NCBI GenBank assembly: GCA_963575745.1
Contig: CAUYUJ010018623.1
Coordinates: 135,769 to 199,768, forward strand
Length of the DNA stretch: 64,000 nt
Reading direction: 5' to 3'
DNA from: Prorocentrum cordatum
Lineage: Eukaryota > Sar > Dinophyceae > Prorocentrales > Prorocentraceae
Shown here: positions 24,542-44,841 of the stretch, piece by piece
How positions within the stretch are numbered: the stretch's first letter is position 1
Layout: each line of letters starts with the position of its first letter
Program-made: the position numbers and the translations under genes
The notes under the pieces: generated by a model
What the model was told of the DNA's origin: nothing
Databases searched by the model: none
What the model saw: the letters and a program-made list of their open reading frames with translations, nothing else

Positions 24542-24752
24542 TGTGAATAGAACCCGTATTATACCCTCATATATATATATATATATATATACTCCTTATC
24601 TTCACTCTCCTGCGCCTGGCCGTTTGGGCTCAGGTATTGGATTAGATACATCAGACATTTGATCGTGCAGGAGGAACAGATATCCATTTTTCCTTCTTTT
24701 CCTCTACCAGTGGATCAGGGGTTCTGTACCTTTGTACTTCAACCCATACACA
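24542..24752 (+). repeat. 5' LTR (211 bp)
   Basis: It starts TGTGAATAGAACCC and ends CCCATACACA. It contains a TA-dinucleotide tract (about 24570-24592). Close to its 3' end is a hairpin, GGGTT..GTAC-CTTT-GTAC..AACCC (about 24719-24746). The stretch GGCCGTTTGGGCTCAGG near 24612 resembles the 3' half of the dinoflagellate spliced leader. The same sequence recurs as the 3' LTR at 42373-44841. Confidence 0.85.
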
Positions 24753-24764
24753 GGTTATCAGCCC
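24753..24764 (+). other. Primer-binding-site-like sequence
   Basis: GGTTATCAGCCC follows the 5' LTR immediately. It resembles the TGGTATCAGAGC primer site used by many copia elements with initiator Met tRNA, but is not identical. The tRNA primer is not established. Confidence 0.5.
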
Positions 24765-24816
24765 TTAAAGGTCACAGTTCATCGAACCCCGCGTCGCGAT
24801 CTCGCACGCGGCCTCG

Positions 24817-26587
24817 ATGGAACCCAAGCGGCGCATGCGCCGTAAGGGGTCCGTCGGGGTCTCGCGTCCGAGCTCTCCGACGGCGCGACGGCTCGGTGAT
24901 GAGTTGGAGAGCCTTACAGTGGACCGTGTGGGTGTCCCAGATACCCCCCCCAACTCAAACGGACCCGAGGCGCGGCTAGCTGCTGAACTTCACCGCCACG
25001 CCGCCCGCGGGGGGACAGGAGAAGGAGTAGGAGCAGGCAGTCGAGAATTTCACACGCCTACCTTCGCACCTCCATCTCCTCTTCCGTCGGGAGCAATCCC
25101 AACTGCTTCGGGCGCGAGCCCCACTGGTCCCGATACTCCAGGGCGCTTCCGCGCTAGCCGCCGATGGAACACCGGTACTGGCCCGACCAGTCCCGCGACC
25201 GTCCCCGTAGCGGAGCACGTTGCTGCTTTTGAGGAGCTCGGTAGACCAGTGTCGGCACAGCCTCAGCCGCAGTACCCCCAGGTATCATCTCGTCAGACAC
25301 CACACACACGGCCCTAGCCGCAGCTCGTCCTTGCGTAACCGTCGTGAGGCCACAGGCCCATACGACGAGAAAAGGTCGAGCCCGCGCGCCGCCTCTCAGA
25401 GGCCATACACTCCTCGCGAGAGGATGCAGCAGGGGACTGACGCTCCCCATCTCTCCCTCTCAGACGACCTGCTGGCGGTGACGTCCGCTGCAGGTGAGAT
25501 TGCTGAGCTCAGAGACCAGGTTGAAACCTTCGTGCCCAGGCAGTACTCTGGACCGATGCAGAGCGTTCAGACGAACGCTGCCAACACTGCTGCGCTACGT
25601 CAAGATTTTGACGGCGCCTTGGCGATCATATATTCCAGGATCGCTGAAGATAGCCGCATCTTAGGTGAGCTGCAGTATCAGGTTGACCGTGAGGTGTCAC
25701 ACCCAGGTGAAGGGTCAGCGACGGTCGAGCACCTGCGCAACTACCTCGCGCAGATGGAGCAACAGCTTGTGATCGTCCGTGACACGGGCGTTTCAGCGGT
25801 CAGGATCCTACATGATGAGATCCACGACCAGCTCCGAAACCGACCGCCTCCAGCTGAGGCAACCGACCTTGGCGACGTCCAGTCTCATATCAATGATCTT
25901 CGATCCCACATGGGCCACGCTACGGCGACGCTTCGCGCTGAAGCGAACGCCAACTCGTCGAACCTGAACGGCGCGTTGCAAAACGCTGAGAGAGTTATCG
26001 CTCAAAGGCTTGACGCGGCGAACGCTGTCGTGCAGCCACTCACTAACCGGATCTCTGAAATCGAGCAGCGTTTCCCTAGTGCACAGGGCGCCCTGGCAGA
26101 GTTGCGTGTCGGACGAGCCCAGACTGATCAGCTGGGATCTCCTCCTGCGGTTTACGATTTCGCCCACCTCACTGACAGGTTGCAGGAGGTTGAGACGGCG
26201 GCGGGCCACGCGCAGTCTGAGCTCCCCCAGGCTATTCGCGAGAGAGATGCTGAAAAGGTACGTGTCGAGGAGTGTCTCACACGTCTGGACAGTGAAATGG
26301 AGGCACACAGCGCCCGTCTCCGAGCCCACGAGCAACGACTTGATCGGCATTCACAACGCTCCCGGGATACTGAGGGCCAAAAAGTGGACCAGATACACGA
26401 GGATTTGACAAGCTGGACAAATCAGTTGATTGACCGCGCCAACGACACTACACTTCACCTTCAGCCTACAACCGGCCTGTCCAGGCCGACGGCAGCGTCC
26501 GCTGAAGCACCGCGCGCTTTTGCAGGACAACAACGACGTACGTCACCAGGAGCAGCCCCGCGGCAGCTTCGGCGCAGACACGCCACG
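24817..26587 (+). CDS. Gag N-terminal region with long coiled coil (frame-broken)
   Basis: The first frame (24817-25317) is Pro/Ser/Thr/Arg-rich, for example MEPKRRMRRKGSVGVSRPSS. It passes into the frame starting 25220, which encodes a long helical region with heptad-like Leu/Ala spacing: LLAVTSAAGEIAELRDQVET, VEHLRNYLAQMEQQLVIVRD, LTDRLQEVETAAGHAQSELP and CLTRLDSEMEAHSARLRAHE. This part is about 400 residues and ends around 26480, where the frame changes again. In copia-type elements this region would form the virus-like particle shell. The frame changes at about 25.3 and 26.5 kb could be indels; I cannot exclude introns. Confidence 0.6.
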
Positions 26588-27986
26588 TGTCACCCGTGCG
26601 CACAGAACCAGCTACCGACGGTGTACCGATACCCTCACAACCACTGTCTGCGATTTCGGTCAATACTATTACTCCTATCAAGGAGTCAGACACCGTCCGA
26701 GTCCCCGTCTTGCCTAAGATCACACAACTGCTTGAGTGGCAGCGAAAGGTACGGAAGAATTTTGGGGCCGCTTCAGGGCGACCATCCAAAGCATATGCTT
26801 TCCTATGCGTGGCTGAACCGCCCGAATGTACCTTTGAGGACTTACAAGACAGCGGGGACTTCGAGAGCGTCGATTGCAAACTCGCTACCGCTTTCAGCGA
26901 CATCTTCTCCTCCGATCTGCGTTGCCAGATCAGGCTCGTCGAGACCAGAGAGCACAAAGCAGGACGCATGCTGAAAGGACGCCGGATCTACTGGCACATC
27001 CTGCAGTCCTACAAAGTGACAGAGGTTGATGACGACCTACACGATTTTGAGCGCCTCAAAGAACTGAGGATGAGATGAGGATTTGCAACGATTCATTACC
27101 GACTGGTGCGCTTTACTGTTGGATTGCCGAGAGGCACCCGACCCGCAGATCTTGGAATCTCTGTTTCGCACGCAGATTCGCCGACATGCCTGGATGAAAC
27201 AGGATATGTACGAGTACCAGCGCATGAAGATAAGCGACCCGAATCGTACCTATGATTGGCTCCGGCAGCGCGTTCTAGACGTACTGGAGCTCAACCAACT
27301 CGAGAAGAATCATAACAAGTTGAGGTACGAGTACGAGAACCGTTCTCAGGCGAACATCTGCGCAGCATGGAAGAAAGGCAATTGTCGCAACGATGAACGC
27401 TGCAAGGTTTTACATACCTTTTCCAGGGATGGGAAGGGCAGCAGATCTTCCCGAGCATCGAACGCTGGCGGCAACACTCGCCGTAGCGTCTCAGCCCCTG
27501 CGAGTTCCAAGAGGCCAGGATCGAAGCCGTGTTGTTTCGAGTTCGCCAAGCGCAGCTCTTGCGCACGCGGCGACACGTGCAGCTTCCCACATACGGTGCA
27601 GCGCAGTTACTTCGCACAGAACAAGCGCCACAAGGGTGACAAATGCAAGCGCGCTCACCTGGCACCTGGTACGAAGACAACTGAGAGAAGCCCCAGCCGC
27701 CCACGGACTTCCAGCCAGGATAGTCGTGGCCGACCGCCATCCCGCGGATCAGGGAGCCGACGCTCTCCACAACGCGGGGGGGTTCGACGTGCCGGGGGCT
27801 CGCACAACGGACGTGACAACCGATGCCACTACGACCGATCTCGATCATTCTCCGGGAAATTTACAGACGTCGAGAGGCCGATCTGATAGATCATCACGAT
27901 CATCTCCCCGAGGACGAGACGGGCGTGGCGGAGGGCGCGGCAATCCACGTGGCCGCGACAGATCATATGGCAGCGACAGGACGTGA
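26587..27986 (+). CDS. Gag capsid-like region with CCCH zinc fingers and RG-rich tail (frame-broken)
   Basis: Frame 26587-27078 has KITQLLEWQRKVRKNFGAAS and IRLVETREHKAGRMLKGRRI, the look of a retrotransposon capsid helix bundle. Frame 27083-27886 continues with DWCALLLDCREAPDPQILES and YDWLRQRVLDVLELNQLEKN. Two CCCH fingers follow: C-x7-C-x5-C-x3-H at residues 93-111 (CAAWKKGNCRNDERCKVLH), and C-x8-C-x5-C-x3-H at about residues 150-169 (FEFAKRSSCARGDTCSFPH after the first Cys). A half finger, GDKCKRAH, is next. The tail is RG- and RS-rich (RDGRGGGRGNPRGRDRSYG), read in two further frames to 27986. CCCH fingers bind RNA, but copia Gag normally carries a CCHC knuckle. Confidence 0.65.
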
Positions 27987-28803
27987 CCGACATTCCACGA
28001 GCCGCGGTTCTTCCCGTGGCTCCCAGAAGTTCAGGGCACGCTCTCCCGCTACCTATCGCCGCCCGCGCCACTCCGACCGCAGTTACGTCATACATGACAA
28101 GACTCTCATGGCCGTCCACAAGGCCAAGACAGCATCTACCAAACCACGGCGTCGGATACGTTTTGACACACATACCGTGGAATACTACCCGTACATCGTC
28201 TCTGGCAAGTCCACTCTGGACAGGTGGATGGAGAAGCCAAACGAGGGCGATATCGTCAAAGTACCAGACCCGCTGCCACAATGGTGGTGGAAACAGAGTG
28301 CAGACGCCCTACGACGTTGTCAACGGGAGGCCACATTATGGTATCAGGACCTACACGGCTACCGACACGACACGGTGTTGGTGGAGACGCCAATTGCGAT
28401 TCCAGAGTCTGGCGACTCTACCACAGAGTCCTCCGAGACACACCAGGAGACGACAGTGACTCAGAAAGTCGACCCACCACGATCGACAGCTGCACTTACA
28501 CGTTCCTGGGTTCTCGACAGTGGATCTGCGCACCATATTCAGGATAAGCACGAGCTGACGCGGACCGAATCTGATCGCATATCTATTTGCGAGGAGCATA
28601 TTCTGGAAACTGCAAATGGTGATCGTACTGTCAACGAGCACTACGACATCCAACTACCTGAAGTGGGCTTGAGGAGTTCAGCCCTCGCCTTGCCAGATTG
28701 CCCATCGTTATTCTCAGTTGGCCAATTGATTGAAATTGATGGCTTTCGGCAGCTTTGGGACGCAGATCTGGGCTACATGCTGCAGGATCCGGGGGGCCAA
28801 TGA
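27987..28803 (+). CDS. Retropepsin-like protease of the giant LTR element
   Basis: The frame open from 27823 carries a linker with RRRIRFDTHTVEYYPYIVSG and WWWKQSADALRRCQREATLW, then the protease at about residues 228-310. The active-site motif is SWVLDSGSAHHIQD, with the Asp codon at 28516-28518, followed by ETANGDRTVN and CPSLFSVGQLIEIDG. These match the copia order 'W(V/I)LDSGxxxH...ANG...LLSVxxL'. A single Asp per chain means it would act as a dimer to process Gag-Pol. The frame ends at TGA 28801-28803 just before the pre-integrase region. Confidence 0.75.
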
Positions 28804-28851
28804 TATAAGGTTCCCGTCAACAACAGAGTTCCAGAATTACGCCTCGACGAT

Positions 28852-30085
28852 TTGGTGAAGATACCACCACCACGATCGTGCACTTCATCAGCACCCAGAC
28901 GTCGTCAGCGCAAGCGTTCTTCTGCGCGCTGCAACGACATATGCTGGCGTTGCAAGACTCCAGGGCAGTCACCACCTACAGATGAGCTGCGGCCCCACCT
29001 AGGGACCTGTCCCAAGAGACAACGCGTCGGCGAGGGAGGAGGAGCGCGGACCCCTACGGTCGACGAACCTCCCGACACAGATAATGCCGAGTCCACTGTG
29101 GATGCACACAGCGGCTCGCCTACGTCTCCGATGCAGCGTTCTCCTCCCGCATGCGGGGGGCCTACCAAGACCCGCGGGGACACCCCAGGTACAGCTCAAA
29201 CAGATACCGACATCACGTCGACCTCCCTCGAGGATCTGCAGGTGGAGACGCTTCCCAAAGTGCACTGTGATGGTGATCGTGTTCTTCCAAACCGAAAGAA
29301 GAAGCCAATCGACCCTATGCATTGCATGACCCACAGTCCAAAACATCCAGACTGTGAGATTTGCTCTCGCACCATGGCGCAGAACGCCCCGTGCAGGCGA
29401 CAGCGCAAACCACATCCACCGGCAGCCCCCACGGACGAAGACACCGCCTACGAGGCTTTCGTCCCGAAGAAATTCGGGGAGGCTCTAACTGCCGACCATG
29501 TCGTTCTGGCCAAAGACAATGCCGCGGACAAGCACGGTGACAAGTATGCACTTGCCGTACTGGATAGATATGCCGGCATCTTCATGTCGTACCCAGCAGT
29601 GCATAAAGGCGCAGCTACTACGAAGGCATCCTTCCAGCAGTTCATCGCCGCAAACGATGAGGTGAAGCACTTATATACGGATAATTCTGGAGCTTCAGAA
29701 GACGTGCCGCCAACTGGGATGGATACATGACGCTAGCACCCCTCATCGTCCACAAACAAATGGATTCATCGAACGCATTGTCAAGATCGTCATCCTCGGT
29801 ACGAGAGCTGTGTTACATATGTCTGGTCTGGGACACGAGTGGTGGAAAGAGGCCATGCAAGCCTTTTGCAGTGGACACAACTTTGTGCATCCATCCACGG
29901 GCGTTGCCGCTCTCAGCGATGAGCATACTGACAAGACAGCTCGCGAAATACGTTTTGGTGAAAGTTTTCCCGGGCACTGCATACCATTTGCTGCTCGAAT
30001 ATTTTGGGAATGCTTCAATCCCGAGATTAACAATGAAACCGCAAAGTTCAAAGAGAATACTCGGGAGGGGTTATTCATGGGTTAA
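28852..30085 (+). pseudogene. Integrase of the giant LTR element (one frameshift)
   Basis: The N-terminal zinc site is MHCMTHSPKHPDCEIC (about 29317-29364, H-x3-H or H-x6-H with C-x2-C). The catalytic core has the first Asp in ALTADHVVL (codon 29494-29496) and the second in LYTDNSG (29680-29682). Immediately after DNSG the frame shifts by one base. The next frame reads ELQKTCRQLGWIHD, STPHRPQTNGFIERIVKI (Glu codon 29771-29773), then HMSGLGHEWWKEAMQAFCSG, and ends with FKENTREGLFMG and TAA at 30083-30085. The Asp-Glu gap is about 30 residues. Integrase lies upstream of RT, which is the copia order. It inserts the cDNA into chromosomal DNA. This copy is inactive because of the frameshift. Confidence 0.75.
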
Positions 30086-30127
30086 GATTTACACTCAGGT
30101 GGACGTTGGTCTGGTGATTTTCTCGTC

Positions 30128-31201
30128 TTGGATACGGCTGCATGCGCCAAGAACCCAGACGGCGACCTGCGTCACGTACACAGAGTCAAAGATATTATTA
30201 TCCCCGACGGCAAGTTCACCTTCCCTGTGAAGGGCGGTACCCTACGACATCACAACCCAGAGGCACACGACGAGGTCAAGGCAACTACTTCTCGTCCTTT
30301 GGGCGACAAACCTATGCCGGACCTTCCACTTGCCTACCCAAAGGAGTGGGGCGATCCATCGATGATGACGCTGGACGACGATGCCGCTGATACTCACCCA
30401 TCGGCTCCAGAGGTTGCTGCAACAGCACCGGAGCCTGACTACTGGGAACAGCGTGGATACTGCATCATCCGACACATCCGCACTCCGCGTAGAAAGTTAT
30501 TCATACCAACAGACGATGTTATGAACATAGCTGCACCTGTTGATCAGCTCGATGTGACGCGAGACTTTGAGACGACTTCTACCTTCGAGGGCGAAGGTGT
30601 CTTTCGTGATGTTTGGGATGGTGTCAGCGCAGCAGACCACCGAGAGCTTAGCGAGCATTGGACCGGCCCAGTTCGGTTCCATGAGCTCCCCGAGATGTTG
30701 CCGGACGGCAAAATGGTGGTCCGCGGCCGTGAGACACGCGTACAGACTACTACGCGCCCAGACCACACTCTTCCCGAACATTGGAAGACTTTGTCTCGAG
30801 GACAACAAAAGAAGGAGATTGAGCACGCAGAAGACATTAAACAAGCTCGCGAGACCCGTGAACGAGCTGCACTTCGAGTGTGGACCCGACAGGACAAACA
30901 AGCCAACAATTTCCGCACTACTACGGTTGGTGGACCTACGTGGAATACCGTGGAACGCCGTATTACTTACGATATGGACAGCGGAGCTGTCATTCGTGAC
31001 GAGGACGTCAAGGGCGCGACCAACAAGGAGATTCTGTATGCCAAGCTACCTGGTGACCACGTGACATTACTACCGTATTGTACTACCGCCAACCCTCGCC
31101 ACAGCCTGCTGGAGTCGCACGTACTCTGGTATTTATTGACAGTGAGGGGAACGACTTCGGGACCGCGAACCCGCTCACCCGCAAGTTCACCCCGTCGGTA
31201 G
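30128..31201 (+). CDS. Integrase C-terminal / connection region
   Basis: This 357-residue frame includes FTFPVKGGTLRHHNPEAHDE, YWEQRGYCIIRHIRTPRRKL and HWKTLSRGQQKKEIEHAEDI. It sits where copia elements have the poorly conserved segment between integrase and RT. It has no catalytic motif. The ~40 bases between 30085 and 30128 read as a continuation, so the stop at 30083 is probably a mutation. The last part overlaps the next frame near 31.1 kb. Confidence 0.55.
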   Translation: MDTAACAKNPDGDLRHVHRVKDIIIPDGKFTFPVKGGTLRHHNPEAHDEVKATTSRPLGDKPMPDLPLAYPKEWGDPSMMTLDDDAADTHPSAPEVAATAPEPDYWEQRGYCIIRHIRTPRRKLFIPTDDVMNIAAPVDQLDVTRDFETTSTFEGEGVFRDVWDGVSAADHRELSEHWTGPVRFHELPEMLPDGKMVVRGRETRVQTTTRPDHTLPEHWKTLSRGQQKKEIEHAEDIKQARETRERAALRVWTRQDKQANNFRTTTVGGPTWNTVERRITYDMDSGAVIRDEDVKGATNKEILYAKLPGDHVTLLPYCTTANPRHSLLESHVLWYLLTVRGTTSGPRTRSPASSPRR

Positions 31202-31203
31202 CA

Positions 31204-32286
31204 GTGCCCACTATGCCACGTGGCCCCACCTACGCACCGGCACACAGAGAGAAGATTCCTGACTCACCATGGCCACGCCCAGCCCTTGTTACCAGAAATT
31301 TGAACAAGCGAGAAGTCGCCGCAGAGCCACGCGCACAGGAAGCCCTACGCAAAGAATACGAGCGCCTTGAAAAGAAGCAAACGTGGATGATAGAGATTGT
31401 TGCTGAAAAGGATAATATTGAATCAGAAGCGATTCGTACAGGGAAGAAGGTTCACTTCTTCAGCATGTTGGAGCTATCTTCCGTGAAACATGAAGAACTT
31501 CCTCCAGAACTAGGTAAGTTCAAGGGCCGCGTGGTGGTTCAGGGCAACACTGGCAAAGACGAAACTGGCTCGGCCGCCATCTTCGCCGACGCCGCATTCA
31601 GCGCGTCGCACATTGAAGCTTCCAAGCTCTGTGACGCTACCGCATTATTGCCAAATTATGGAGGCGACCAGAGCGATGCACCTGGCGCATGCACGCAAGC
31701 CTTACTATACGGAGACGGACGAATAGACCCAGTCGGTATTTGGATTACTCTACCTAAGTGGCGTCATCCTGCATCCTGGTCTAAATACAGGAATCCCGTG
31801 CGCCGACTACGATTGGCACTGTGCGGACATCCTCTCGCAGGTGTGTTTTGAGAACGAAAATGTCGCACGTGTCCGGGAAGTGTTGGATTTGAACCTATCC
31901 CAGGCTTGAAATGTGTGTGGAGACACAACAAACTGGCATTGATACTTTCAGTATACGTGGACGACTTCAAACTTGCAGAGCCAGCCACCAACTTACATGC
32001 TGGTTGGGATCTGATCCGCAAAAGCGGCATTGGTTTGGACCCGCCTACTCCGTACTCTCAATACCTTGGCTGTGGACAACAGGCTCGCGACGTTCCCCAA
32101 AACGTCTTCGACAAAAGAATGTCTACCATTCGACCTATGTTGCCTACCCACAGTGACAAGGATTATCATACAGCTAAACAAGTTCGTGGAATACGACATG
32201 ACATGCTTGGCTTTACCGATCAATGTTTCGAACGCTACCTGGAGTGCGCCTCCGAGCGTACCCAAGGGCCAGGGTCACGTCGTTAA
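31204..32286 (+). pseudogene. Reverse transcriptase (copia type), with in-frame stop
   Basis: The frame contains KREVAAEPRAQEALRKEYER, LGKFKGRVVVQGNTGKDETG, the finger/palm motif DAPGACTQALLYG (about 31675-31713) and RRLRLALCGHPLAGVF. A TGA at 31849-31851 stands where the family usually has Trp. The same frame then continues with SVGFEPIPGLKC and LILSVYVDDFKLAEP, the YVDD catalytic box at 31954-31965. SQYLGCGQQARDVPQNVFD and HTAKQVRGIRHDM complete the thumb/connection part. This matches RVT_2. The enzyme copies element RNA to cDNA. The stop suggests a single-base change from TGG. Confidence 0.8.
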
Positions 32287-33370
32287 CGGGCTGACTCCCC
32301 GAGGGCTTCGCGATCCCCATCGCCTAGCTCCTCTGGGTCGGTCGAGAGACCTACGACTGCGTCGCAATCTACGACAGTCACGTACGATGACCTACCCGAC
32401 GCAGAGACTCGTGGCATCGAGGATACATCCTTCACCGAGTCCGATTACTCCGACGAGGGCATCCTCGGCCAGGATGCGGCGAGTGTACTACTGAAGATTC
32501 TCTATCTGGCACGTTGTTGTCGTGTCGATATGTTGCATCCAGTGTGCATGCTAGCCAGAGAGATTACCAAATGGAATACCACGTGTGACAAACGCCTTCA
32601 TCGGCTGATATGCTACATCAAAATGACGCGTACCCATTGTTTACATGGATGGATTGGCGATGCTTCGGATAAGCTATCCCTCATGCTCTTCACTGACGCC
32701 TCGTTTGCCGATTGCACTACCTCCTCCAAGTCCCTTACTGGCGTATTCGCGGCGCTGGTTGGACCCAATGCGTTCTTCCCGTCAATGCCGTGTGCAAGAA
32801 ACAGACGGTCGTTTCGCTTTCATCCACAGAGTCCGAGATCGTTGCTCTTGACTCGGCGCTACGACTGGAGGGACTACCACTACTCTCATTCTGGGGGGCT
32901 GTGGTGGAGGTTGCCGGCACCTGCAAAGAGAAGATGACATGCCTGGGCTGCCTGGGACGCGCCGCTACGGCGATATGTCCGACTCTGGCCGCCAAAAAGA
33001 AGAGGCGCAAGCCATCGCCTCGCCAGGCGTCCCCTACACGGGGATCTTCTCCTAGCCGTAGGCAGCTACCGCTGAAGACGGAGCTACCTACGCCTCCAAA
33101 GAGGCGCGCGATATCCCACGAGGGTGCGGTGCTACACGTGGACCCAGAGCCTGCTCAGGAGAGCAGCTCTCCCAAAGTGAATCTCATCGCCCTAGAGGAC
33201 AACCAGGCCGTGATCAAGATTGTCCAAAAGGGACGTACACCAGCACCTCGTCATCTTCATCGTACTCACAGCATTAACTTGGATTGGATATGTGAAACAT
33301 GCCAATTCGAGCACATTGAGCTCAAGTGCGGAGGTACAAAAGAACAATTTCAGATATGATGACTAAACAT
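32287..33370 (+). pseudogene. RNase H of the giant LTR element (frame-broken)
   Basis: Frame 32530 gives MLHPVCMLAREITKWNTTCD and LMLFTDASFADCTTSSKSLT with the first catalytic Asp. The frame shifts near 32.75 kb to KKQTVVSLSSTESEIVALDS with the catalytic Glu. After a Lys/Arg/Ser/Pro-rich insertion (about 32980-33170, unusual in position) come LIALEDNQAVIKIVQKG and RHLHRTHSINLDWICETCQF, with HIELKCGGTKEQF at the end. The block order matches copia RNase H. This normally is the last domain of the element, but coding sequence continues downstream here. Confidence 0.7.
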
Positions 33371-35400: not shown

Positions 35401-35401
35401 T

Positions 35402-36187
35402 ATGTTATTGCCAGAGGCTGGCGGCGACACCCGCTGCGATATGGCAAAGCTCCGTGGGCAGCCCGCCAGGGCGCAGGACAAACGTATCGCAGCTATCCTA
35501 CAATCCCAATACGAGTCCACGCTTGAGCAGCGCAACAGGACCCTCATGATCCGCATGGCCAGAGCCCTATTAATGATGAACGACAATCATTCGATGGCAG
35601 AATGGCGTAAGCTGAGCGAGATCATATGGGGTCTGGGTTATTGGGCAAAAGACTTCCCTGCATACGTGAAACAGCGTCACTACAGCAGGGGCCTCAATGC
35701 CGTCGTGGTCTGGAGCGCAAACGACATTGCTTGCGCTAGCCATGGTCAGCAATGGTTGGATACACAACGTCACCACGATCGTGCTCCCACGAACGCACGT
35801 GAATTCATCAAGATGGAGTGCCAGGACAGCGTCCCGAAGCTTATGCCGGTACACGTGAAGGTGGACTTGTCACGCTTCATTGACGTGATGCAATACTTCC
35901 GTTGTCCCACCGTCATGGGTCCAGGCAAAGCAGCGCAATGGGGCGTACATTCGACCTTCGACCATCACACGAGCGACCTGACCAGAGCTACGCAATGTCG
36001 TGGTATTGTGGTACTTCCCTCCGACCATTGGGTTGAGTCGTACGACAGAGCCACGCCTACGGCCTGGCATGCCAAGCAGAACAACCACAATCTGGCAGTG
36101 ATGACGACTCAATTTTGTGATGCGGTATGCTATCGCAATTTCTGTGCGTTGATCCAGTCGTTACCATCGCAGCCGTATCCATTTTGA
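35402..36187 (+). CDS. Cargo ORF A2, probable continuation of A1
   Basis: A 261-residue frame, preceded in frame by DTPIGQDC. It encodes RIAAILQSQYESTLEQRNRT, MAEWRKLSEIIWGLGYWAKD, MPVHVKVDLSRFIDVMQYFR and GVHSTFDHHTSDLTRATQCR, ending SLPSQPYPF. It lies directly after A1 with a one-base frame difference. No family recognised. The His- and Asp-containing stretches are not in a pattern I can assign. A copy of the short hairpin repeat (35418-35433) falls exactly at the A1/A2 junction. Confidence 0.5.
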   Translation: MLLPEAGGDTRCDMAKLRGQPARAQDKRIAAILQSQYESTLEQRNRTLMIRMARALLMMNDNHSMAEWRKLSEIIWGLGYWAKDFPAYVKQRHYSRGLNAVVVWSANDIACASHGQQWLDTQRHHDRAPTNAREFIKMECQDSVPKLMPVHVKVDLSRFIDVMQYFRCPTVMGPGKAAQWGVHSTFDHHTSDLTRATQCRGIVVLPSDHWVESYDRATPTAWHAKQNNHNLAVMTTQFCDAVCYRNFCALIQSLPSQPYPF

Positions 36188-36313
36188 CCTCCGCTCCTGA
36201 ATGCCGTCACAGAGGAGCAAGCCTTCGCACAGGCTAAAGAGATCATGGACGCTCTTCACTTCCGCGAGAAAATGATTACATAAAGGAAGAGGCATCTCAG
36301 CCTCACGACGCTG

Positions 36314-36673
36314 ATGACCCAGACTGCAGGGGAAATGGCTCCTTGTGCTTGGATGGCTTCCTGCGCCAGTGGCACGTTACCCAAATCGATGCCGCTGGCA
36401 ACAAGCGATCCATATATGCCCGCCCCTGGTCTCACAGAGGAGCCACCAGCAGCGGATCCAGCGCAAACCAGTCAAGATGATGATCCATATTTTGAGGCGT
36501 ACAAGGAGCTGTACTACAAACTTCTCCTCCTGCTCGAGGATTACCTGGGCGTTTGGAGATCCTACAACTCGGGCGAGAAGCAGGAGCTCTTACACCCTAC
36601 ATGGGTAAAATGCCAAGGATGCGCATGCTCTCACTTGGATTGTATACGAACAGTTCTTGATCCAGATCAATGA
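36314..36673 (+). CDS. Cargo ORF B1, short unknown
   Basis: 119 residues with MAPCAWMASCASGTLPKSMP, a Pro-rich linker and YFEAYKELYYKLLLLLEDYL, then CQGCACSHLDC. It overlaps the next ORF by 17 bases in another frame and runs into it at FLIQINDIAEANDANKSR. It is therefore likely the N-terminal part of the KptA-like protein separated by a frame change. Confidence 0.4.
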   Translation: MTQTAGEMAPCAWMASCASGTLPKSMPLATSDPYMPAPGLTEEPPAADPAQTSQDDDPYFEAYKELYYKLLLLLEDYLGVWRSYNSGEKQELLHPTWVKCQGCACSHLDCIRTVLDPDQ

Positions 36674-38669
36674 TATTGCTGAGGCTAATGATGCAAATAA
36701 ATCACGTCTCATTGCAGAGCGTAATGTACTGAACTCTCATCGTGTCGGACCTCGCATTGACAACTCAGACACCACCACGGCATGCAAGGGTTTCTACACC
36801 CGGACTGCCTTAGATTGCATCGAGGTACAACCTGAGCCGCCGGAGCCGGCCGCCAGGCCTGCTGTGGCACCAGCCGCTGCAGACCCGACAACGCTCTCGG
36901 CGACTCCGCTCAGCGAGGACAGACAGCCCCTGCCACCAGGACCGCTCCCGCCCGCCACGCCAGCAGCGTCCCCAGATATGGGTCCGCATATTGCCTCGGA
37001 TGAGGACGCTGACGTGGTGGCGGAGCTGGAAGCAATTCCTGCTGACACTGCGCCTACGCCTGGTCAGCAATTGGAGGCTATGCGTATACTGTCGTGGCAG
37101 GACTGCTGCGAGCGATCATACCATGTGGACGCAAGCCAGATACCGACATTCAACAGTGCATACGCTCCTCGTGAGTATAAGCTCCAGGCTGGTCTTATGG
37201 ACGATCACCCATACGTACCACCCGGATTGGGGGGCACCACCGCACACAATGGCATGGACTGCCTGATGAACAACGACTGGGCTCGTCAATTGGCTTACGA
37301 CGACTGCGTGATTACCCACGCGCCCGATATTGCCCAATCCGGCTGTTTCCCAGAATGGAAATGGATGTCACTTCCGCCATACGATCAGACCCGTTATGGA
37401 CCAGAGTTGCTTACGCAAGAGTGGCTTGGCGATCCTACATGCATGAGCAAGGATATCACGACCATGCTCCGCCACGCGAATCACAGCAGACCTTTTCATA
37501 TTGATCAATTTGCCGACAGACGGGTCAACATATGGTCGATGAAGGCACAGCAATCCTGGACGATTCCCAGCAATTGGAAATCTTTCCAAGATATGGTTCA
37601 ATGGAAATTCGCAGAGCGTCATGGTCAATCCAACGGACCATCCACTGAGGCGGCCGTGGCACACTGTCGTAAAGACGGCGAGTCAGAAGGATACGAATGC
37701 TGGACTGATTACTACCCGATATTCATCTTCAACGCGTTTCAGAAACACATCGACCCGGAGAAGAATCGGATCGAGGTATATGCCAAATCAATACCTGCCG
37801 AGGGTGACCCCAGCTGCTTCGACTGGAGCAGCGTCATTGCTATCCGATGCGTTGGCGGACACAGTTCAGTCAATCCGCTCTCCAAACCATGGAATATTGG
37901 CTGGGAGAGCTTGAAATGGACAGACGTTAAATACCTCCATCACGGCACGACATTTCGCGCCTGGAGAAGCATCCTCAAGACCGGGATCATTCCTGGCTAC
38001 GTCAACCAATCACGGAGAAACAACCGGCAAAAAGGTTCACAGCGTTCGGGGGCATTCTACAGTTCAAGCACATACGTGCACATCGCCAAACAGAATCCTC
38101 ACACATCTGTTCCACCGTATAAGTTCAAGCACTACAAGAACGAGGTGGAGCTCGCGATCGACATGCAGTTTGCCATGAACTCTGGTTGCAGATTTTGGCT
38201 CGGCGCACAGTTCGCTATCATGACTGAGGACGTGGTTCCAGCCGCCGCAATCCTTGCCATTCGCCGCGTCGCAGGGCACCGCGAAGCGGGCAAGCAGTTG
38301 TGGCCAGAGAAGGGCCCCAGCTGGGGCTATCCGCCGCTGTCGCAGAGACGACCATTGAGCAAATACGAGATTTGCGTTACTCCTCAGCAGCAATCAGGAC
38401 AATATCAGATGGCACAGGAGTTCGAGGCGGATACGATCGCCGACCCTCCTGGGATCGCCCAGACACTACACAGTGCAGCCCCAACAGCGACGGTCTACGC
38501 CACGGCTTCACAGTTGCGAACTCAGTCTGCCTCAGCATCATCGGCACAGCGACCTAGCGCCCCTTTGCTGGGGGCGACCCCCGCTGGCCATACTGCTGAC
38601 GCTGACGCTTTAGATGAGGCCATCGTCCGTGAGATGGTCAACAGTTGTGGGCACAACACACAGGATTAG
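36657..38669 (+). CDS. Cargo ORF B2: KptA/Tpt1-like RNA 2'-phosphotransferase domain protein
   Basis: A 670-residue uninterrupted frame, the best-preserved ORF of the element. Residues 1-160 are a disordered Pro/Ala-rich stretch. Residues 160-385 hold aromatic-rich sequence (WTIPSNWKSFQDMVQWKFAE). Residues about 385-540 resemble the KptA/Tpt1 fold: VIAIRCVGGHSSVNPL (like the family's IRxxQGHS, His at about residue 402), VKYLHHGTTFRAWRSILKTG (like LYHGTxxxxWxSILxxGL), ELAIDMQFAMNSGCRFWLGA (like ID..A...G..F..S) and MTEDVVPAAAI. Tpt1 enzymes use NAD+ to remove a 2'-phosphate from spliced RNA, and related enzymes ADP-ribosylate nucleic acid ends. The usual R-x-HIH segment is replaced by GAFYSSSTY, so activity is uncertain. 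This is motif-based inference. Confidence 0.6.
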   Translation: MIQINDIAEANDANKSRLIAERNVLNSHRVGPRIDNSDTTTACKGFYTRTALDCIEVQPEPPEPAARPAVAPAAADPTTLSATPLSEDRQPLPPGPLPPATPAASPDMGPHIASDEDADVVAELEAIPADTAPTPGQQLEAMRILSWQDCCERSYHVDASQIPTFNSAYAPREYKLQAGLMDDHPYVPPGLGGTTAHNGMDCLMNNDWARQLAYDDCVITHAPDIAQSGCFPEWKWMSLPPYDQTRYGPELLTQEWLGDPTCMSKDITTMLRHANHSRPFHIDQFADRRVNIWSMKAQQSWTIPSNWKSFQDMVQWKFAERHGQSNGPSTEAAVAHCRKDGESEGYECWTDYYPIFIFNAFQKHIDPEKNRIEVYAKSIPAEGDPSCFDWSSVIAIRCVGGHSSVNPLSKPWNIGWESLKWTDVKYLHHGTTFRAWRSILKTGIIPGYVNQSRRNNRQKGSQRSGAFYSSSTYVHIAKQNPHTSVPPYKFKHYKNEVELAIDMQFAMNSGCRFWLGAQFAIMTEDVVPAAAILAIRRVAGHREAGKQLWPEKGPSWGYPPLSQRRPLSKYEICVTPQQQSGQYQMAQEFEADTIADPPGIAQTLHSAAPTATVYATASQLRTQSASASSAQRPSAPLLGATPAGHTADADALDEAIVREMVNSCGHNTQD

Positions 38670-39660
38670 GATTGGCTGCTTGCAGTGTCACGATGCAGAG
38701 AGGCTCTTCGACCCATCACAGCGAATATTTCACATACAGGCTTGGGATCGACGGCCTATCTTCAACGATGTCCGCATGGGGGACTTCATTATCGTCAAAA
38801 CTTGGGGCTCAATCAATTGCTACCATTATGACAACCACTACCCCAAGGGCGACTACAACACGAGAGCTCGCATGAATAAGTGCCACGTCTATGGTCCAGT
38901 TATACATTTCGGAGTATTCGAAAAGTTCTTTTCAGTGCAAATACTTATCCTCAACTACGGTCTACGATGGGTAAACATATGGTATTGCAGCAAAAACCTG
39001 CCCCTCAAGGGCATTGTCTTCGCTCTGCCAGTACGCGCTGACATTGACCCCGTCCACTTGAATGTCGCGCTCCAGGGCCCGTCTTCGTGCAGTGATCAGA
39101 TCGCAGAATTTGCCAATACAGGTGCTCTGCCATATCTGGGAATGCCGACCATATACAAGCCGCGTATCCCACGTGCGCCGCCCAGACGCCCCGCCCCTCG
39201 GACACCTGATCCCGACCAGGAGCTGGTGGCGACACCTGCCGACGATCCCATGGCGGACGACGAGGGATCCACACGCGATGCGGGTCAATCCAATGATGCC
39301 CCAGTCGCTGTCATCATTGACACTTCTACCATAACACTCACAGACGAGGAGAAGGCAGCCAATGATACCATGAAGGCAGAAATGACGGCGGATATGCATG
39401 CTGATGAGGACGTTGGATCTTCCATCCTCGATAACATCATCGACCCGCCAGATAATTTCCTCAATCGCCCCGACTACGACCCAGAGGATCATACTAAATG
39501 GATTCTTTCCTCTTGCGACCACAGGGTGTATTACTGGACATCGGCACCACTGGTGGACTCACCCATGATTCAGGTGAAACAAATCATTGAGCTACACGCT
39601 GGCAGGGCCAACCTTGTGGTGGACAAGATGTGTCATACTTACGATTTGAGTTCCGCTTCG
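38670..39660 (+). CDS. Cargo ORF C1, unknown
   Basis: In the frame open from 38614, directly after the stop of the KptA-like ORF, it reads RIGCLQCHDAERLFDPSQRI, IFHIQAWDRRPIFNDVRMGD and FFSVQILILNYGLRWVNIWY. An acidic/Pro-rich linker (RAPPRRPAPRTPDPDQELVA) follows. At about 39640 the meaningful frame changes to that of C2. The beta-strand-rich look has no named match. It includes a copy of the hairpin micro-repeat (39225-39236). Confidence 0.45.
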
Positions 39661-40184
39661 GAACCAGTGCGGGCGCATACCAGATGGACTACGACCACAC
39701 CCATACATGGGCACGTGATTTGCCAATATGCAACGCAGATCATTTCTTCAAGAAGATGGTGCATTTTCTCGACCCTGAGGTTATTCCGGAGTCAACTACA
39801 AGTATCTTCCAATGGATTTCCAAAGTGTACCAAACGATCTTGTTGGATGGCATCAGGGAGCTACATCAATTTACCAACGCTTCCATCAACAAGAACCATC
39901 CTGCTCTTACTGCGTTGCGAGCACTCTTCACAGAGCGCAAAAAGACACATGGATACCCAGGCTTCCCCGCGTGGGAGGAGCCGGTGGCGACACCTGCCGC
40001 GCCTGACCAGGACGACCCAGGCGCCAGGCAGGATATTACCCAGGACCCAGGTAGTGTTGCTTCTGCAGCCCCAGACCAAGAAACCATGGTGCAGGTCCTG
40101 GCCGAGATGCAAAACATCGACCGCGACGTGGGCCTCGCATTCGGGTGGACATGGCCGCATCCTACGAGCAGACGGACTCCATGA
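39630..40184 (+). CDS. Cargo ORF C2, unknown, continues C1
   Basis: 184-residue frame: LRFEFRFGTSAGAYQMDYDH, ARDLPICNADHFFKKMVHFL, STTSIFQWISKVYQTILLDG and a disordered tail EEPVATPAAPDQDDPGARQD. It follows C1 with a one-base frame difference. No domain is recognised. A hairpin micro-repeat copy is at 39983-39994. Confidence 0.45.
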   Translation: MSYLRFEFRFGTSAGAYQMDYDHTHTWARDLPICNADHFFKKMVHFLDPEVIPESTTSIFQWISKVYQTILLDGIRELHQFTNASINKNHPALTALRALFTERKKTHGYPGFPAWEEPVATPAAPDQDDPGARQDITQDPGSVASAAPDQETMVQVLAEMQNIDRDVGLAFGWTWPHPTSRRTP

Positions 40185-41160
40185 CTATAGACGCCTCCGA
40201 GTACACAGGACTACCGGGAGAAAGGCTATCGCCGACCGGGATCGAGGGGATCGGACGATCGATCGCTTCTCGTGCCACCGCTGAGCTCAATCGTGAGGCT
40301 ATGAACCTGCTTGGTCATTCCCTCGTGTCAGCAGCTGGTGGCAACACTCGCTGGGGCTCTCTCAGGGGTCTCACCGCGTCTGGGGCCCCTGAAGAACTCC
40401 AGCAGGATATCCCGCGATGTAGGAATTGCGATCGCCTCCTATCTTTGGGGATCGTCACCAATGATGGGACACTTTGCGACATCTGTTGGCAGTATAGTGT
40501 CTCTGTAGGTGCCACAGGCAAAGGTGGGGCCGAGGAGAGCGACCTGGCGTACCTCCAGCAGCTCAACTACTGGATCAGGGCCAACCTCTCCGAGGACGAC
40601 GTCGGCCGCTACATGTCAGATGGAGCGCGTGTCTACATGACAGGCAAAAGGTCCATACACGGACACGAGAAGGACACCTTGAGGGAACTAGCGAAGAAGG
40701 CGGGAGAGAGGTACCAGAGGTGGCTCGATGCAGGTTCCCCTCCTGCAAACAAGTGCAGGATGATGGGCGAACCTGACGATCAGCGTCCTCTGTGCCACCC
40801 TTACCGCAATGTCGCCCAACGCTTCCTCAGCGACCCACGTTTCCGCCACCAGATGACTGCCGCTCGTGTGGAGACTGGCAAGAATGCCTGGACCATCGAG
40901 GACATGCGCGATGCCTGCGACATCCATGCTCGCAGCGTTGAGCTGGGCCACGCTGGTCGCAGGAACTGGTGGTTGAACGAGGGTAGGATGGACAGAGGCA
41001 CCAGGCAAGAGCGTGGACTCATCACAGTTGCTTTGCCCCGCGGGGACGGCACTTGTGAAAAGGCCACGCAACGCAAGCTTGCCAAACTCGCCTCTGTCGA
41101 ACCTGCCATGGGTTCCGCCGATTCAAGGGGGGCGAGCGCAGGGGTTAGAACCGATCCTAA
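40145..41160 (+). CDS. Cargo ORF D1, zinc-ribbon protein
   Basis: 406-residue frame, of which about the first 340 residues look real. Residues about 91-115 carry CRNCDRLLSLGIVTNDGTLC and DIC, a C-x2-C / C-x2-C pair of zinc-ribbon type. Then come DLAYLQQLNYWIRANLSEDD, MTGKRSIHGHEKDTLRELAK and a Cys/His-containing segment LCHPYRNVAQRFLSDPRFRH. It overlaps the end of C2 by 40 bases. Function unknown; a nucleic-acid-binding role is possible. After about 41160 the reading frame is low complexity. Confidence 0.5.
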
Positions 41161-41588
41161 TAACCCCCCAATCACACTCCTCTCACACACATGGCGCCAT
41201 GGCGCCGCAGCAGCCGCGGCATCCGCCGCCGCCTCGCGCTGCCCATGGCGACGCCGCTGCGCCACGGCAGATCAGCGACAGCAGCCGCAGGCCGACGACG
41301 CCCCCGCGTGCCAAGCGGGCGCGTACGACAGAGGACTACGCAACGTGGTGGCGCCACAACCTTGAGGACAGCCCATGGGGCCCAAGGTGCTGGAGCCACT
41401 ACATCAAGTGCTGGATTTATATCGCGGAGAACAATGACGAGTTCGTATACATCCGCGACTTGCAGTGCAACGATCGATTCCGCAACTGGACCCCAAGTAC
41501 AGCTTGGGCGACATATACGACGAGCTTCGTCGGGATCGATGGCCACAGGGTGTGGGGCCACAGGTTCTACATGAGAGGCACTTCGTAG
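41161..41588 (+). CDS. Cargo ORF D2, C-terminal piece
   Basis: In the frame open from 41013 it reads APRAKRARTTEDYATWWRHN, GPRCWSHYIKCWIYIAENND, VYIRDLQCNDRFRNWTPSTA and ends HRVWGHRFYMRGTS with TAG at 41586-41588. It is Trp/Tyr-rich and probably folded. It is most simply the continuation of D1 after a frame change. It is the last coding sequence before the 3' untranslated part of the element. Confidence 0.45.
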
Positions 41589-41960: not shown

Positions 41961-42026
41961 CCAGCTTTGGTTTGAAAGCTGGTGGCAACACCTGCCGCGT
42001 ACAGACGCGGCAGCTTCTGACGTTGC
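41961..42026 (+). promoter_or_regulatory. Paired hairpins near the element's 3' end
   Basis: CCAGCTTT / AAAGCTGG (41961-41968 with 41975-41982) is a perfect 8-bp stem with a 6-base loop. CTGCCGCGT / ACGCGGCAG (41992-42000 with 42005-42013) is a perfect 9-bp stem with an ACAG loop, enclosed by GCAAC / GTTGC (41985-41989 with 42022-42026). GGTGGCAACACC (41982-41993) belongs to a repeated motif of the element. It lies in untranslated DNA before the polypurine tract. An RNA packaging, processing or 3'-end role is inference. Confidence 0.6.
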
Positions 42027-42361
42027 TTTAATTTACTCAGATCCTCTTACTCCGCCCACCCGTGCCTCATTCTTCTCCGCCCTCAAGTGCCGAAGCGTTT
42101 TTGGGGGGCGCACCGAGGGGGCACCAAAGTGTGCTTGGCGAAGAAACAGGGGCCCTGGGTGTTCTTTCTTTCCCTTACTTGCCTGATCATGCCAGCTGTT
42201 GTGCTACGCTACACTTTTGCACGCCGCTGTCGTGATCGGGGCGCAGCTGATGCGATGCAGCGTTTACGCTCAGCTGCCTTGCAGTGCTGAGGATTTGAGG
42301 AGTAAAAGGGTGACATGTTCTTTTCTCCTTTTCCCGAGTCCTGCCCTTGCGGGCGGGATTC

Positions 42362-42372
42362 GGGACGGGGGG
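42362..42372 (+). other. Polypurine tract
   Basis: GGGACGGGGGG directly abuts the TG of the 3' LTR. In LTR elements this primes plus-strand DNA synthesis. One C interrupts the purines. Confidence 0.65.
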
Positions 42373-42425
42373 TGCGAATAGAACCCGCATAATACCCTCA
42401 TATACATATATATACATTTATATAT
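42373..42425 (+). repeat. 3' LTR, left part
   Basis: TGCGAATAGAACCCGCATAA and TACCCTCATATACATATAT match the first 50 bases of the 5' LTR through the TA tract. The match ends at about 42425, where a poly-C run begins. Confidence 0.8.
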
Positions 42426-42499
42426 GGTCGCCCCCCCCCCCCCCCCCCCTCCAAGATCATACCTTTTCGTCTCCTCATCCTCGATTGCTTCGTTTCCTT

Positions 42500-42561
<62 letters not shown>

Positions 42562-42599
42562 CTTTCTTTGTCTCTGGGCTCTCTCGGAACTCTGACCGT

Positions 42600-43505
42600 T
42601 GAGAACCGCTGCGCTTTCAAGGTTTTCCATATTTTCCAAGTTTTCCCAGGCGCTGACCATTGAGAAACGCTGTGTTTTCCAGATTTTCCATGTATTCCCA
42701 GACACTGACCGTTGAGAAAAGCTGTGTTTTCAAAGTTTTCCATGTTTTCCATGTTTTTTCCCAGACACTGACCAGTTGAAAAACGTTGCGTTTTCCAGAT
42801 TTTCCAGATATTCCAGATCTCCCCAGAGACTGCACAAGTGAAACACGTTGTGTTTTCCAGATGTTCCAGATATTCCAGATCCTCCCAGAGACTGCACAAG
42901 TGAAAAACGTTGTGTTTTCCAGATATTCCAGATATCCCAAATCTTCGCAGAGATTACTCTGAGCTTGCAGCATTGTTTCTGTGAGGATTTGGAATATCTG
43001 GAAAATCTGGAAAACATGTCGTTTTTCATTTGGGCAATCTTTGGGGGGATCTGGAATATCTGGAATATCTGGAAAACGCAACGTTTTTCACTCGTGCAGT
43101 CTCTGGGGGAATCTGGAATATTTGGAAAATCTGGAAAACACAACGTTTTTCACTTGGGCAGTCTTTGGGAAGATCTGGAATATTTGGAAAATCTGGAAAA
43201 TACAACGTTTTTCACAAAGGGCAATCTCTGGAAGGATCTAGAATATTTGGGACATCTAGAAAACACAGCGTTTTTCACTTGGGCAGTTTCTGAGAGGATC
43301 TGGAATATTTGGAATATCTGGAAAACACAACGTTTTTCACGTGTGCAGTCTCTGGGAGGATCTGGAATATTTAGAAAATCTGGAAAACACAGCGTTTTTC
43401 ACCTGGGCAATCTCTGGGAGGACCTGGAATATTTCGAACATCTGGAGAAGACAACGTTTTCCACCAGGGTAGTTTCTGTGAAGATCTGGAATATCTGGAA
43501 TATCG
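42600..43505. repeat. ~62-bp minisatellite, two arms in opposite orientation
   Basis: Left arm (42600-42955) reads TTTTCCAGATATTCCAGATC and CAGAGACTGCACAAGTGAAA. Right arm (42985-43505) reads GATCTGGAATATCTGGAAAA and TTTTTCACTTGGGCAGTCTC, the reverse complement. The turn is at about 42970. Confidence 0.85.
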
Positions 43506-43509
43506 TTTT

Positions 43510-43950
43510 GCGAGGTTTTCCAATCGAATCCCTTTGTGGTCTTTCCTAATGGTTCTTTTTGTGAGACTTTCCAATAAAATCCCTATGTGCTGCTTTCCAA
43601 ACGGTTCCTGCTGCGAGGTTTTCCAATCGAATCCGTTTGTTGCGCTTTCCAAAGGATTCCTTGTGTGAGGCTTTCCAATAGAATTCCTTTGTGGTGCTTT
43701 CCAAAGGATTCCTTTTTGTGCGGCTTTCCAATAGAATCCCTTTGTGGTGCTTTCCAAAGGATTCCTGTTGCGAGGCTTTCCCATGGAATTCCTTTGCGAT
43801 GCTTTCTAAAGGATTCCTTTTGTGAGGCTTTCCAATAGAATCCCTTTGTGGTGTTTTCCAAAGGGATTCTATTGGAAAGCCTCAGAGCAGGAATCGTTTG
43901 GAAAGCGCCACAAAGGAATTCCATTGGAATGCCTCACAAAAGGATATTCC
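43510..43950. repeat. ~55-60-bp minisatellite ending in a perfect 24-bp hairpin
   Basis: Units contain GAGGCTTTCCAATAGAATCC and GGTGCTTTCCAAAGGATTCC to 43847. The family then turns round: 43824-43847 and 43860-43883 are perfect reverse complements over 24 bases with a 12-base loop. Inverted units continue to about 43935. Confidence 0.85.
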
Positions 43951-44009
43951 AGATATTCCAGATCTTCACAGAAATTGCCCCGGTGAAAAACCTTGTTGTT
44001 TTCGGGCGC

Positions 44010-44435
44010 GGAGGTGGGGACCCTGGCCAGGGAGCCTTTTCAGGTTCCCTCTCCAGCACATCAAACGGACAAGGAAGCCTTTACAGGTTTCCCCTCCCGC
44101 CACTGGCCAGGGAGCCTTTTCAGGTTCCCTCTCCAGCACGACAGACGGGCCAGGACACCTTTTTCAGATTCCCCCTCCCGCCACTGGCCAAGGAGCCTTT
44201 TCAGGTTCCCTCTCCAGCACGTCAAGCGGGCCAGGAAAAGGCTCCCGCCTCTGGCCAGGGGGCCTTTTCAGGTTCCCTCTCCAGCACAACAGACGGGCCA
44301 GGAAACCTTTTCAGGTTCCCCCTCCCGCCACTGGCCAAGGAGCCTTTTCAGGTTCCCTCTCCAGCACAACAAAAGGGGCAAGGAAATCTTTTCAGGTTCC
44401 CCCTCCCGCCACTGGCCAGGGAGCCTTTCCGCGTC
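44010..44435. repeat. ~77-80-bp minisatellite
   Basis: CCACTGGCCAGGGAGCC recurs near 44100, 44180, 44330 and 44410, with GCCTTTTCAGGTTCCCTCTC and CAGCACAACAGACGGGCCAG in between. Five to six half-units are visible. Confidence 0.8.
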
Positions 44436-44637
44436 GGCCACGTCGTCGAAGGAGCACATCGTCGAAGGGGCATCCATAAATGGATGCCCCCTTCTGCAGC
44501 ATCAAGGCACGATAGGGGGGGGGGGCTGGAACCGATGCGCAGACATAATGAAGATAAGCGTGGTAAAGATGAATAGGAGGGAGATGGGGATGAACGCGCA
44601 TCAAGACGAGATGCGTGATCTTGGATGGGGGGGGAAC

Positions 44638-44642
<5 letters not shown>

Positions 44643-44681
<39 letters not shown>

Positions 44682-44841
44682 CCTTATCCTCACTCTCCTG
44701 CGCCTGGCCGTTTGGGCCCAGGCATTGGATTAGATTGATCAGACCTTTGATCGTGCAGGGGGAAAAGATATCCATCTTTCCCTCCTTTACTCTACCAACG
44801 GATCAGGGGTTCTGTACATTTGTACTTCAACCCCATACACA
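44643..44841 (+). repeat. 3' LTR, right part
   Basis: After a TA tract it reads CCTTATCCTCACTCTCCTGC, GGCCGTTTGGGCCCAGGCAT, TTGATCGTGCAGGGGGAAAA and ends AACCCCATACACA. It matches 24592-24752 with about 16 differences in 157. It keeps the terminal hairpin (GGGGTT..GTAC / GTAC..AACCCC). Confidence 0.85.

Follow-up and report, generated by a model that had tools for sequence, protein, structure and literature searches.

The window analysed here is a stretch of 64,000 nucleotides from the dinoflagellate Prorocentrum cordatum (contig CAUYUJ010018623.1, positions 135,769 to 199,768) with a guanine plus cytosine content of 59.2%, compared to 59.7% listed for this species (PMC11453091). At positions 24542-44841 of the window lies a long terminal repeat (LTR) retrotransposon of the Ty1/copia type, present as an aged copy with broken frames. 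A previous reading of the letters alone, in the following called the sequence-only reading, had described it as a 20-kb copia element carrying 8 kb of extra coding DNA after RNase H. We compared this copy with sister copies from searches of the genome assembly (4.13 Gb, 21,875 contigs). The profile of the peridinin-chlorophyll protein (PF02429) matched at 63 places of this assembly (best E 3e-47) and in none of 14 control genomes, which identifies the host as a peridinin dinoflagellate. With a probability of about 0.9, the window copy is an old, decayed member of a high-copy, recently active copia-type family, whose polyprotein is extended in frame past RNase H by about 2,700 residues. The locus comprises the following features (letters A to J denote sister copies):

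24537 to 24541, no strand: left target-site duplication GAGGA, read directly.
24542 to 24752, plus strand: 5' LTR of 211 bp with TG...CA ends, TGTGAATAG...CATACACA, from the sequence and the LTR alignment.
24753 to 24764, plus strand: primer-binding-site-like sequence GGTTATCAGCCC, read directly.
24817 to 27900, plus strand: gag-like part of the polyprotein, disrupted in frame in the window copy, with CCCH zinc fingers at about 27.36-27.60 kb that are below the Pfam cut-offs in the window, above them in copy J.
28492 to 28557, plus strand: protease-like motif SWVLDSGSAHHIQ, without profile match.
28804 to 30082, plus strand: integrase with an HHCC-like HSPKHPDCEIC and an Asp/Asp/Glu stretch, from motifs, an rve match in sister copy F and an rve_3 match at E 0.02 in the window.
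31057 to 32283, plus strand: reverse transcriptase with YVDD at about 31954, from this motif and RVT_2 matches in sister copies.
32287 to 33450, plus strand: putative RNase H, its EQIADMMTKHFEPKKA-type tail free of stops in copies C, E and H, from motifs without Pfam profile match.
33451 to 41588, plus strand: in-frame C-terminal extension ('cargo') of about 2,700 codons, disrupted in frame in the window copy and ending with TAG at 41586-41588; from sister alignments, frame reading and selection.
37593 to 38267, plus strand: Tpt1/KptA-like domain, PF01885 at 30.4 bits (cut-off 26), hhalign 96%, E 3.3e-9.
40390 to 40480 (approximate), plus strand: zinc-ribbon-like CxxC...CxxC motif in the extension, from the sister alignment.
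42361 to 42372, plus strand: polypurine tract CGGGACGGGGGG, read directly, same or nearly so in sister copies.
42373 to 44841, plus strand: 3' LTR, interrupted at about 42425-44642 by a repeat block private to this copy; from LTR alignment, repeat search and sister comparison.
44842 to 44846, no strand: right target-site duplication GAGGA, read directly.

The ends proposed by the sequence-only reading were borne out: the LTR termini match, with TGCGAATAG at 42373 directly 3' of the purine tract, GAGGA is present on both outer sides, and the claimed primer-binding-site-like sequence and polypurine tract are both in place. The primer-binding-site-like sequence follows the 5' LTR unchanged in eight of the ten sister copies selected by their LTR. 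Its complement resembles the anticodon arm of a tRNA rather than the 3' end, and a priming site of this kind is used by Drosophila copia. The 5'-end LTR is 196-204 bp long in the ten LTR-selected copies and 196 bp in the six measured copies that were selected by their cargo (see below). In the window, a first part of the 3' LTR (42370-42422, about 50 bases) matches the start of the 5' LTR at 87% and a second part (44657-44842) matches the remainder at 91%. These halves are separated by a block of about 2.2 kb that consists of tandem and inverted repeats, with unit lengths of 26-62 bp among others; it contains long inverted arms of up to 194 nt that are 85% complementary. The block is missing from the 3' LTR of C, G, H and J and from the 196-bp 3' LTR of each of six cargo-selected copies, and is therefore private to the window copy among the copies read. 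Due to this block the window copy measures 20.3 kb, while the canonical element seen in the sister copies is about 18.0 kb long with LTRs near 196 bp. Thus, the LTR element claimed before is real, but 2.2 kb of its supposed 20 kb are a private insertion.

The interior follows the copia order gag, protease, integrase, reverse transcriptase and RNase H that had been claimed, with protease and RNase H proposed from motifs. A WVLDSG motif (Asp codon at 28516) is what we take to be the protease, and the region 32287-33450 is presumably RNase H, judging from its motifs. For integrase, the rve profile matched in one of two sister open reading frames (ORFs) that span it fully or partly, at E 2e-6 in copy F; the ORF of copy J, which covers the integrase partly, gave no match. 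RVT_2 matched in three of the four sister ORFs that cover the reverse transcriptase (H 1.7e-6, B 1e-4, G 5.5e-3; none in C). The YVDD motif is found in the window and in six of eight copies, with a single change each in L009 and L026. In the sister copies the domains come in the order CCCH zinc fingers, rve and RVT_2, which places integrase upstream of reverse transcriptase as in copia elements.

To follow the element through the genome, a query consisting of the LTR and leader was used. It provided 1,619 first-look candidates, from which the best 40 were scored, and ten further copies (A-J) were fetched. All 40 scored places (window included) matched at E 2.4e-130 or better with 89-100% identity; two additional weak rows of this search were reverse-strand matches at places already listed. 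The alignment continued collinearly into the 33.4-41.6 kb block in all eight LTR-selected sister copies that reach RNase H. Copy F departs from the alignment within pol, and copy I stops at the contig end. A second LTR was found in copies C, G, H and J and is truncated in B; copy A runs into Ns, while the alignments of D and E cease to be collinear before the end is reached. In copy J (L026/L027) the region 34.8-38.8 kb is deleted, i.e. about 4 kb of the extension including the Tpt1-like domain, with LTRs and a perfect duplication kept. This internally deleted copy was possibly mobilised in trans, or the deletion came later.

A second query, a piece carrying the Tpt1-like domain, gave 1,462 first-look candidates. 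The best 150 were scored and all of them matched at E 2e-110 or better. End pieces were read for ten of these cargo places, five being among the longest frames and five coming from the top 13 by rank: an LTR was present at at least one end in all ten and at both ends in seven. Positions were also counted among the matches listed, where remaining places are neither support nor counter-example. By this count, 25 of the 40 scored 3' ends (window included) sit 2.7-4.7 kb after a listed Tpt1-like match, in 21 cases at 3.2-3.5 kb. Of the 40 scored LTR starts, 7 precede such a match, at 13.0-13.2 kb in six cases and at 9.8 kb in the remaining one. The sequence-only reading had expected other copies to run LTR-pol-cargo-LTR with their own 5-bp duplications. 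This order, including gag, and individual duplications were found in the LTR-selected copies, and a search with the cargo piece led to copies carrying LTRs at the expected distances. The opposite pattern, LTRs closing after RNase H everywhere and the block standing alone elsewhere, was not observed among these copies, which were chosen non-randomly and without a search for cargo-less relatives. It is nearly certain that the extension belongs to the element.

Both LTRs, direct and with TG...CA ends, were located in 12 copies: the window copy, four of the ten LTR-selected and seven of the ten cargo-selected ones (first bases altered in the 3' LTR of C and J). Eight of the 12 have perfect 5-bp duplications, three agree at 4/5 bases and one has none. 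Among the LTR-selected copies the duplications are perfect in C (GGCTC), H (TCATC) and J (GCACC) and read GATGG/GGTGG in G; in the seven cargo-selected copies they are perfect in four (CCCTG, CAACC, GGAGC, GAGCT), agree at 4/5 bases in C6446 and C5557 and are lacking in C18595. A wrong assembly that joined two LTR fragments around unrelated sequence would fit a window copy that is broken and has a split 3' LTR; yet the same order recurs in many contigs with different flanks and individual duplications, such that the sister copies refute this explanation and leave it next to no probability.

The LTR pairs of cargo-selected copies match at 196/196 in two copies, at 194-195/196 in three and at 179/196 in C6446 (six measured, C5557 left out). 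Such near-identical pairs are indicative of recent insertion, and the family is recently active. The LTR divergence (Kimura two-parameter) amounts to 0.026 to 0.071 in LTR-selected copies, which are older than the copies with near-identical LTRs, and to 0.097 in the window copy.

In the window copy the coding frame is interrupted by many frame changes and stops. At 19 of the 20 segment junctions tested, between 1 and 9 sister copies keep the frame open. A separate frame assumed for 33376-33780 (segment c1a) turned out to be wrong: this junction with RNase H was open in 0 of 8 copies, and the true frame emerged from a further comparison of the copies. RNase H and the extension share one open frame in copies C, E and H, i.e. 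in three of the seven comparable sisters, which read ...EQIADMMTKHFEPKKADLWRDL... onward into the extension without a stop (C and E with small changes). Copies A, B, D and G as well as the window have stops or shifts there, and copy J lay outside this comparison. The final TAG of the window is aligned with a TAG in B, G, H and J (in G with a one-base shift upstream); the alignment of C ends earlier. One cargo-selected copy contains an open frame of 5,669 codons that includes the Tpt1-like domain. As this copy measures about 17.97 kb from LTR to LTR, the frame must span nearly the whole interior. The ORFs at 33.9-41.6 kb, previously regarded as lying inside the element, do lie inside it; they are pieces of one frame that starts in Pol and ends at the TAG at 41586, not separate cargo genes.

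Usual copia elements are 4-6 kb long and end after RNase H. The present element shares with Ty1/copia elements the TG...CA LTRs, the 5-bp duplication, integrase before reverse transcriptase, RVT_2, YVDD and the polypurine tract. It differs in its size of about 18 kb, roughly three times the usual one, in a polyprotein of about 5,600 codons, in the 2,700-residue extension with a Tpt1-like domain and in the CCCH zinc fingers in gag.

We then considered selection on the extension from pairwise ratios of nonsynonymous to synonymous substitutions (dN/dS, Nei-Gojobori) between one subfamily (A, B, E) and another (C, D, G, H, J), with F and I left out and with pairs of fewer than 60 shared codons as well as codons near gaps removed. 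The median dN/dS between subfamilies was 0.22 for gag, 0.29 for protease-integrase and 0.18 for integrase through RNase H, and 0.33, 0.16, 0.23, 0.24, 0.32 and 0.24 for the six extension blocks. Shifted frames of the same alignments gave 1.0-1.7. Alignments from tblastn favour conserved stretches, such that the absolute values may be low; the shifted frames use identical stretches. The first extension block (c1) includes up to 135 codons in the wrong frame (33376-33780), which would if anything raise its ratio. Within subfamilies the in-frame medians were 0.24-0.54 and exceeded the between-subfamily values in eight of nine blocks (the exception being the Tpt1-like block), as expected since recent copies decay. 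Every extension block is under purifying selection. Together with the open frame shared with RNase H this shows that Pol itself continues into the 'cargo', which is a conserved C-terminal part of that protein and not a set of separate genes.

The synonymous divergence (dS) between subfamilies is larger in the extension (0.63-1.14) than in gag-pol (0.32-0.45), which suggests that halves were exchanged between subfamilies. Such partly separate histories would also be in agreement with a separate mobile element or a host gene block that was inserted once or a few times and is carried passively, and plant LTR elements are known to transduce genes (PMC7264820). We consider this highly improbable: recombination of subfamilies would account for the dS gap without passive carriage, the position is constant in the examined copies that reach the block, copies C, E and H have no stop after RNase H, and purifying selection acts throughout. 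In addition, a repeat search (seeds of 20) revealed no pair of direct or inverted repeats of at least 60 bp that enclose the block inside the element, by which a nested insertion is disfavoured as well.

A conserved extension of Pol also has to be set against an env-like gene. Hydropathy profiles, judged by the common Kyte-Doolittle threshold of 1.6, contained no 19-residue window above this value in 13 of 14 stretches, the remaining one being a hydrophobic stretch in copy H. Some plant LTR elements have a sense ORF with transmembrane segments between pol and the 3' LTR, in the same position as the extension (PMC7264820). An env-like nature of the extension is very unlikely, given the single hydrophobic stretch, the in-frame fusion to Pol and a length far beyond that of env-like ORFs.

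The only recognisable domain of the extension is the Tpt1-like one; scans of the Pfam, NCBIfam and PHROGs profile libraries found no enzyme signature elsewhere in it. PF01885 matched the window piece above its cut-off and all four members of an alignment (A2), which was derived from a first domain alignment of seven rows by dropping L016 and L018 (partial) and L022 (out of frame). Four other extension ORFs, which overlap the domain partially or lie outside it, gave no match. In PHROGs an RNA 2'-phosphotransferase family was hit at E 4e-4, and the hhalign match listed above was obtained for a profile of four copies against eight KptA proteins over 141 columns. A tblastn search of phages returned six weak records (E 2-7), five of them at an RNA 2'-phosphotransferase gene (three annotated as such, two being the same phages deposited as 'hypothetical'); with the same query, nine plasmid records were obtained, all of one unrelated gene. 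A search for relatives with a profile of the domain covered 4,421 candidates and provided eight fragments (P0001-P0008), each bearing the label eukprot Pyramimonas_sp., which refers to a green alga. These fragments resemble more than one subfamily; they may stem from contamination or from a second host.

Residues were surveyed in 15 rows from 14 distinct copies (one copy twice), in which the first pair and the fourth Arg could not be placed with certainty. Within the Arg-His-Arg-Arg tetrad, the His is kept in 14/15 rows, the KxR Arg in 15/15 and a candidate fourth Arg in 14/15. Also kept are the residues of HGT (14 or 15 of 15 each, Gly 14), those of GHS (13 to 15, His 13) and the IR Arg. With Tpt1/KptA the domain has in common GW..., KxR, IRxxxGHS, HGT and the C-terminal ID...G.F...(I/V)xT.D.VP, while it differs in the first tetrad Arg, in a long insert after HGT and in being embedded in a polyprotein (PMC6333775). 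Further downstream, at about 40.4 kb, both pairs of the zinc-ribbon-like motif CRNCDR...CDIC are readable in five of six sister copies (L010, L014, L022, L024, L027); a stop follows directly in L022, and L012 is aligned only partly.

A number of results weigh against the interpretation given here. At the level of the element, the RVT_2 and rve scores are below the curated Pfam cut-offs, protease and RNase H were recognized by motifs without a Pfam match, half of the extension is missing in copy J, and the copies were not drawn at random, being nearest to the window LTR or chosen for long frames and top-ranked Tpt1 matches. At the level of the domain, the PF01885 match is modest and falls to 21.6 bits, below the cut-off, in the long ORF of copy H. 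NCBIfam models of RNA 2'-phosphotransferase reach at most 15 bits compared to cut-offs above 230. A PDB profile search ranks RNA 2'-phosphotransferases first, yet at E 0.56, and with a single ORF it returned none. Protein databases contained nothing at E 1e-3 for the Tpt1-bearing ORF and the first cargo ORF (residues 150-728) among 7,995 and 7,996 scored candidates, respectively. AlphaFold models had mean confidence scores (pLDDT) of 29 for the domain alone and 33 with eight relatives and were unusable. Finally, the first Arg of the catalytic tetrad is replaced by Ala in 14/15 rows.

Since the tetrad is essential in Tpt1 (PMC6333775) and its first Arg is not kept, we call the domain Tpt1-like and not proven Tpt1; judged from its residues, Tpt1 chemistry may have been lost. 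The domain could then be a structural relic, an ADP-ribosyltransferase-like fold that binds protein or RNA without catalysis, with the extension adding capsid material or nucleic-acid-binding mass to accommodate a very long genome. The exchange of the first Arg, the replacement of a further conserved KptA Arg (Lys in 12 rows, other residues in 3) and the lack of other enzyme signatures in the extension favour such a relic, but HGT, GHS, the KxR Arg and the candidate fourth Arg are kept and the dN/dS of the domain is 0.24. On balance we regard the relic as a serious possibility that nevertheless falls short of even odds.

Regarding the role of the Pol extension, it would travel within the gag-pol RNA and protein, would be cut off by the protease of the element and would act in the element's own cycle. 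As its one recognisable domain is Tpt1-like, the likeliest job may be the handling of RNA ends or the NAD-dependent modification of RNA or of a host factor, in the particle or at priming, as processing or as counter-defence. This proposal is tentative. A more specific version, which we consider rather doubtful, would be a copia lineage whose one polyprotein, about 5,600 residues long, includes an active RNA-modifying enzyme of a redesigned Tpt1 type, for processing of the primer or of RNA ends or for undoing a host RNA-damage or ADP-ribosyl defence.

Scans of IMG/VR with an integrase piece and one cargo ORF found no relatives, Rfam gave nothing at gathering scores, and the dinoflagellate spliced leader does not occur in the window when up to 3 mismatches are allowed. 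Elsewhere in the window, positions 310-3102 on the minus strand contain a 930-aa ORF with a DUF6570 match (E 2e-11) and a weak resemblance to ubiquitin hydrolases (E 4e-5), which may belong to another mobile element, and positions 6043-12150 hold dense tandem repeat arrays with 21-bp and about 90-bp units.

Copia elements are the most abundant retrotransposons of Symbiodinium, where they lack a DNA methyltransferase (DNMT) (PMC5890265), and heat-activated Ty1-copia elements are reported for S. microadriaticum (cited in PMC11453091). The capture of enzymes by retrotransposons is already known, as SymbioLINE-Dnmt, SymbioDIRS-Dnmt3 and KnitGypsy-Dnmt3 carry captured enzyme domains, with a Ka/Ks below 0.2 for KnitGypsy-Dnmt3 (PMC5890265). 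Our element resembles these in having an enzyme-like domain within a coding region under purifying selection. In contrast, they are LINE, DIRS and gypsy elements with a methyltransferase, for which the available extract describes no 8-kb extension, and ours is a copia element with a Tpt1-like domain. Known as well are additional ORFs, env-like or antisense, between pol and the 3' LTR of plant LTR retrotransposons (PMC7264820); unlike these, the extension is part of a single fused frame and has no clear transmembrane segments. Among the literature matches listed, no title or start of an abstract dealt with a giant dinoflagellate copia element or with Tpt1 in a retrotransposon, which is weak evidence of novelty as subscription papers were mostly outside the coverage.

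The existence of a copia family of 18 kb that was active recently and has a 2,700-residue extension under selection means that an LTR element with one frame can carry three times the coding load without losing the ability to amplify. The element is furthermore a concrete case of an RNA-repair-type domain that has been recruited by a retroelement. If the domain were an active Tpt1-type enzyme, it would represent a new kind of enzyme for retroelements, within a polyprotein that is unusually large for the copia superfamily.

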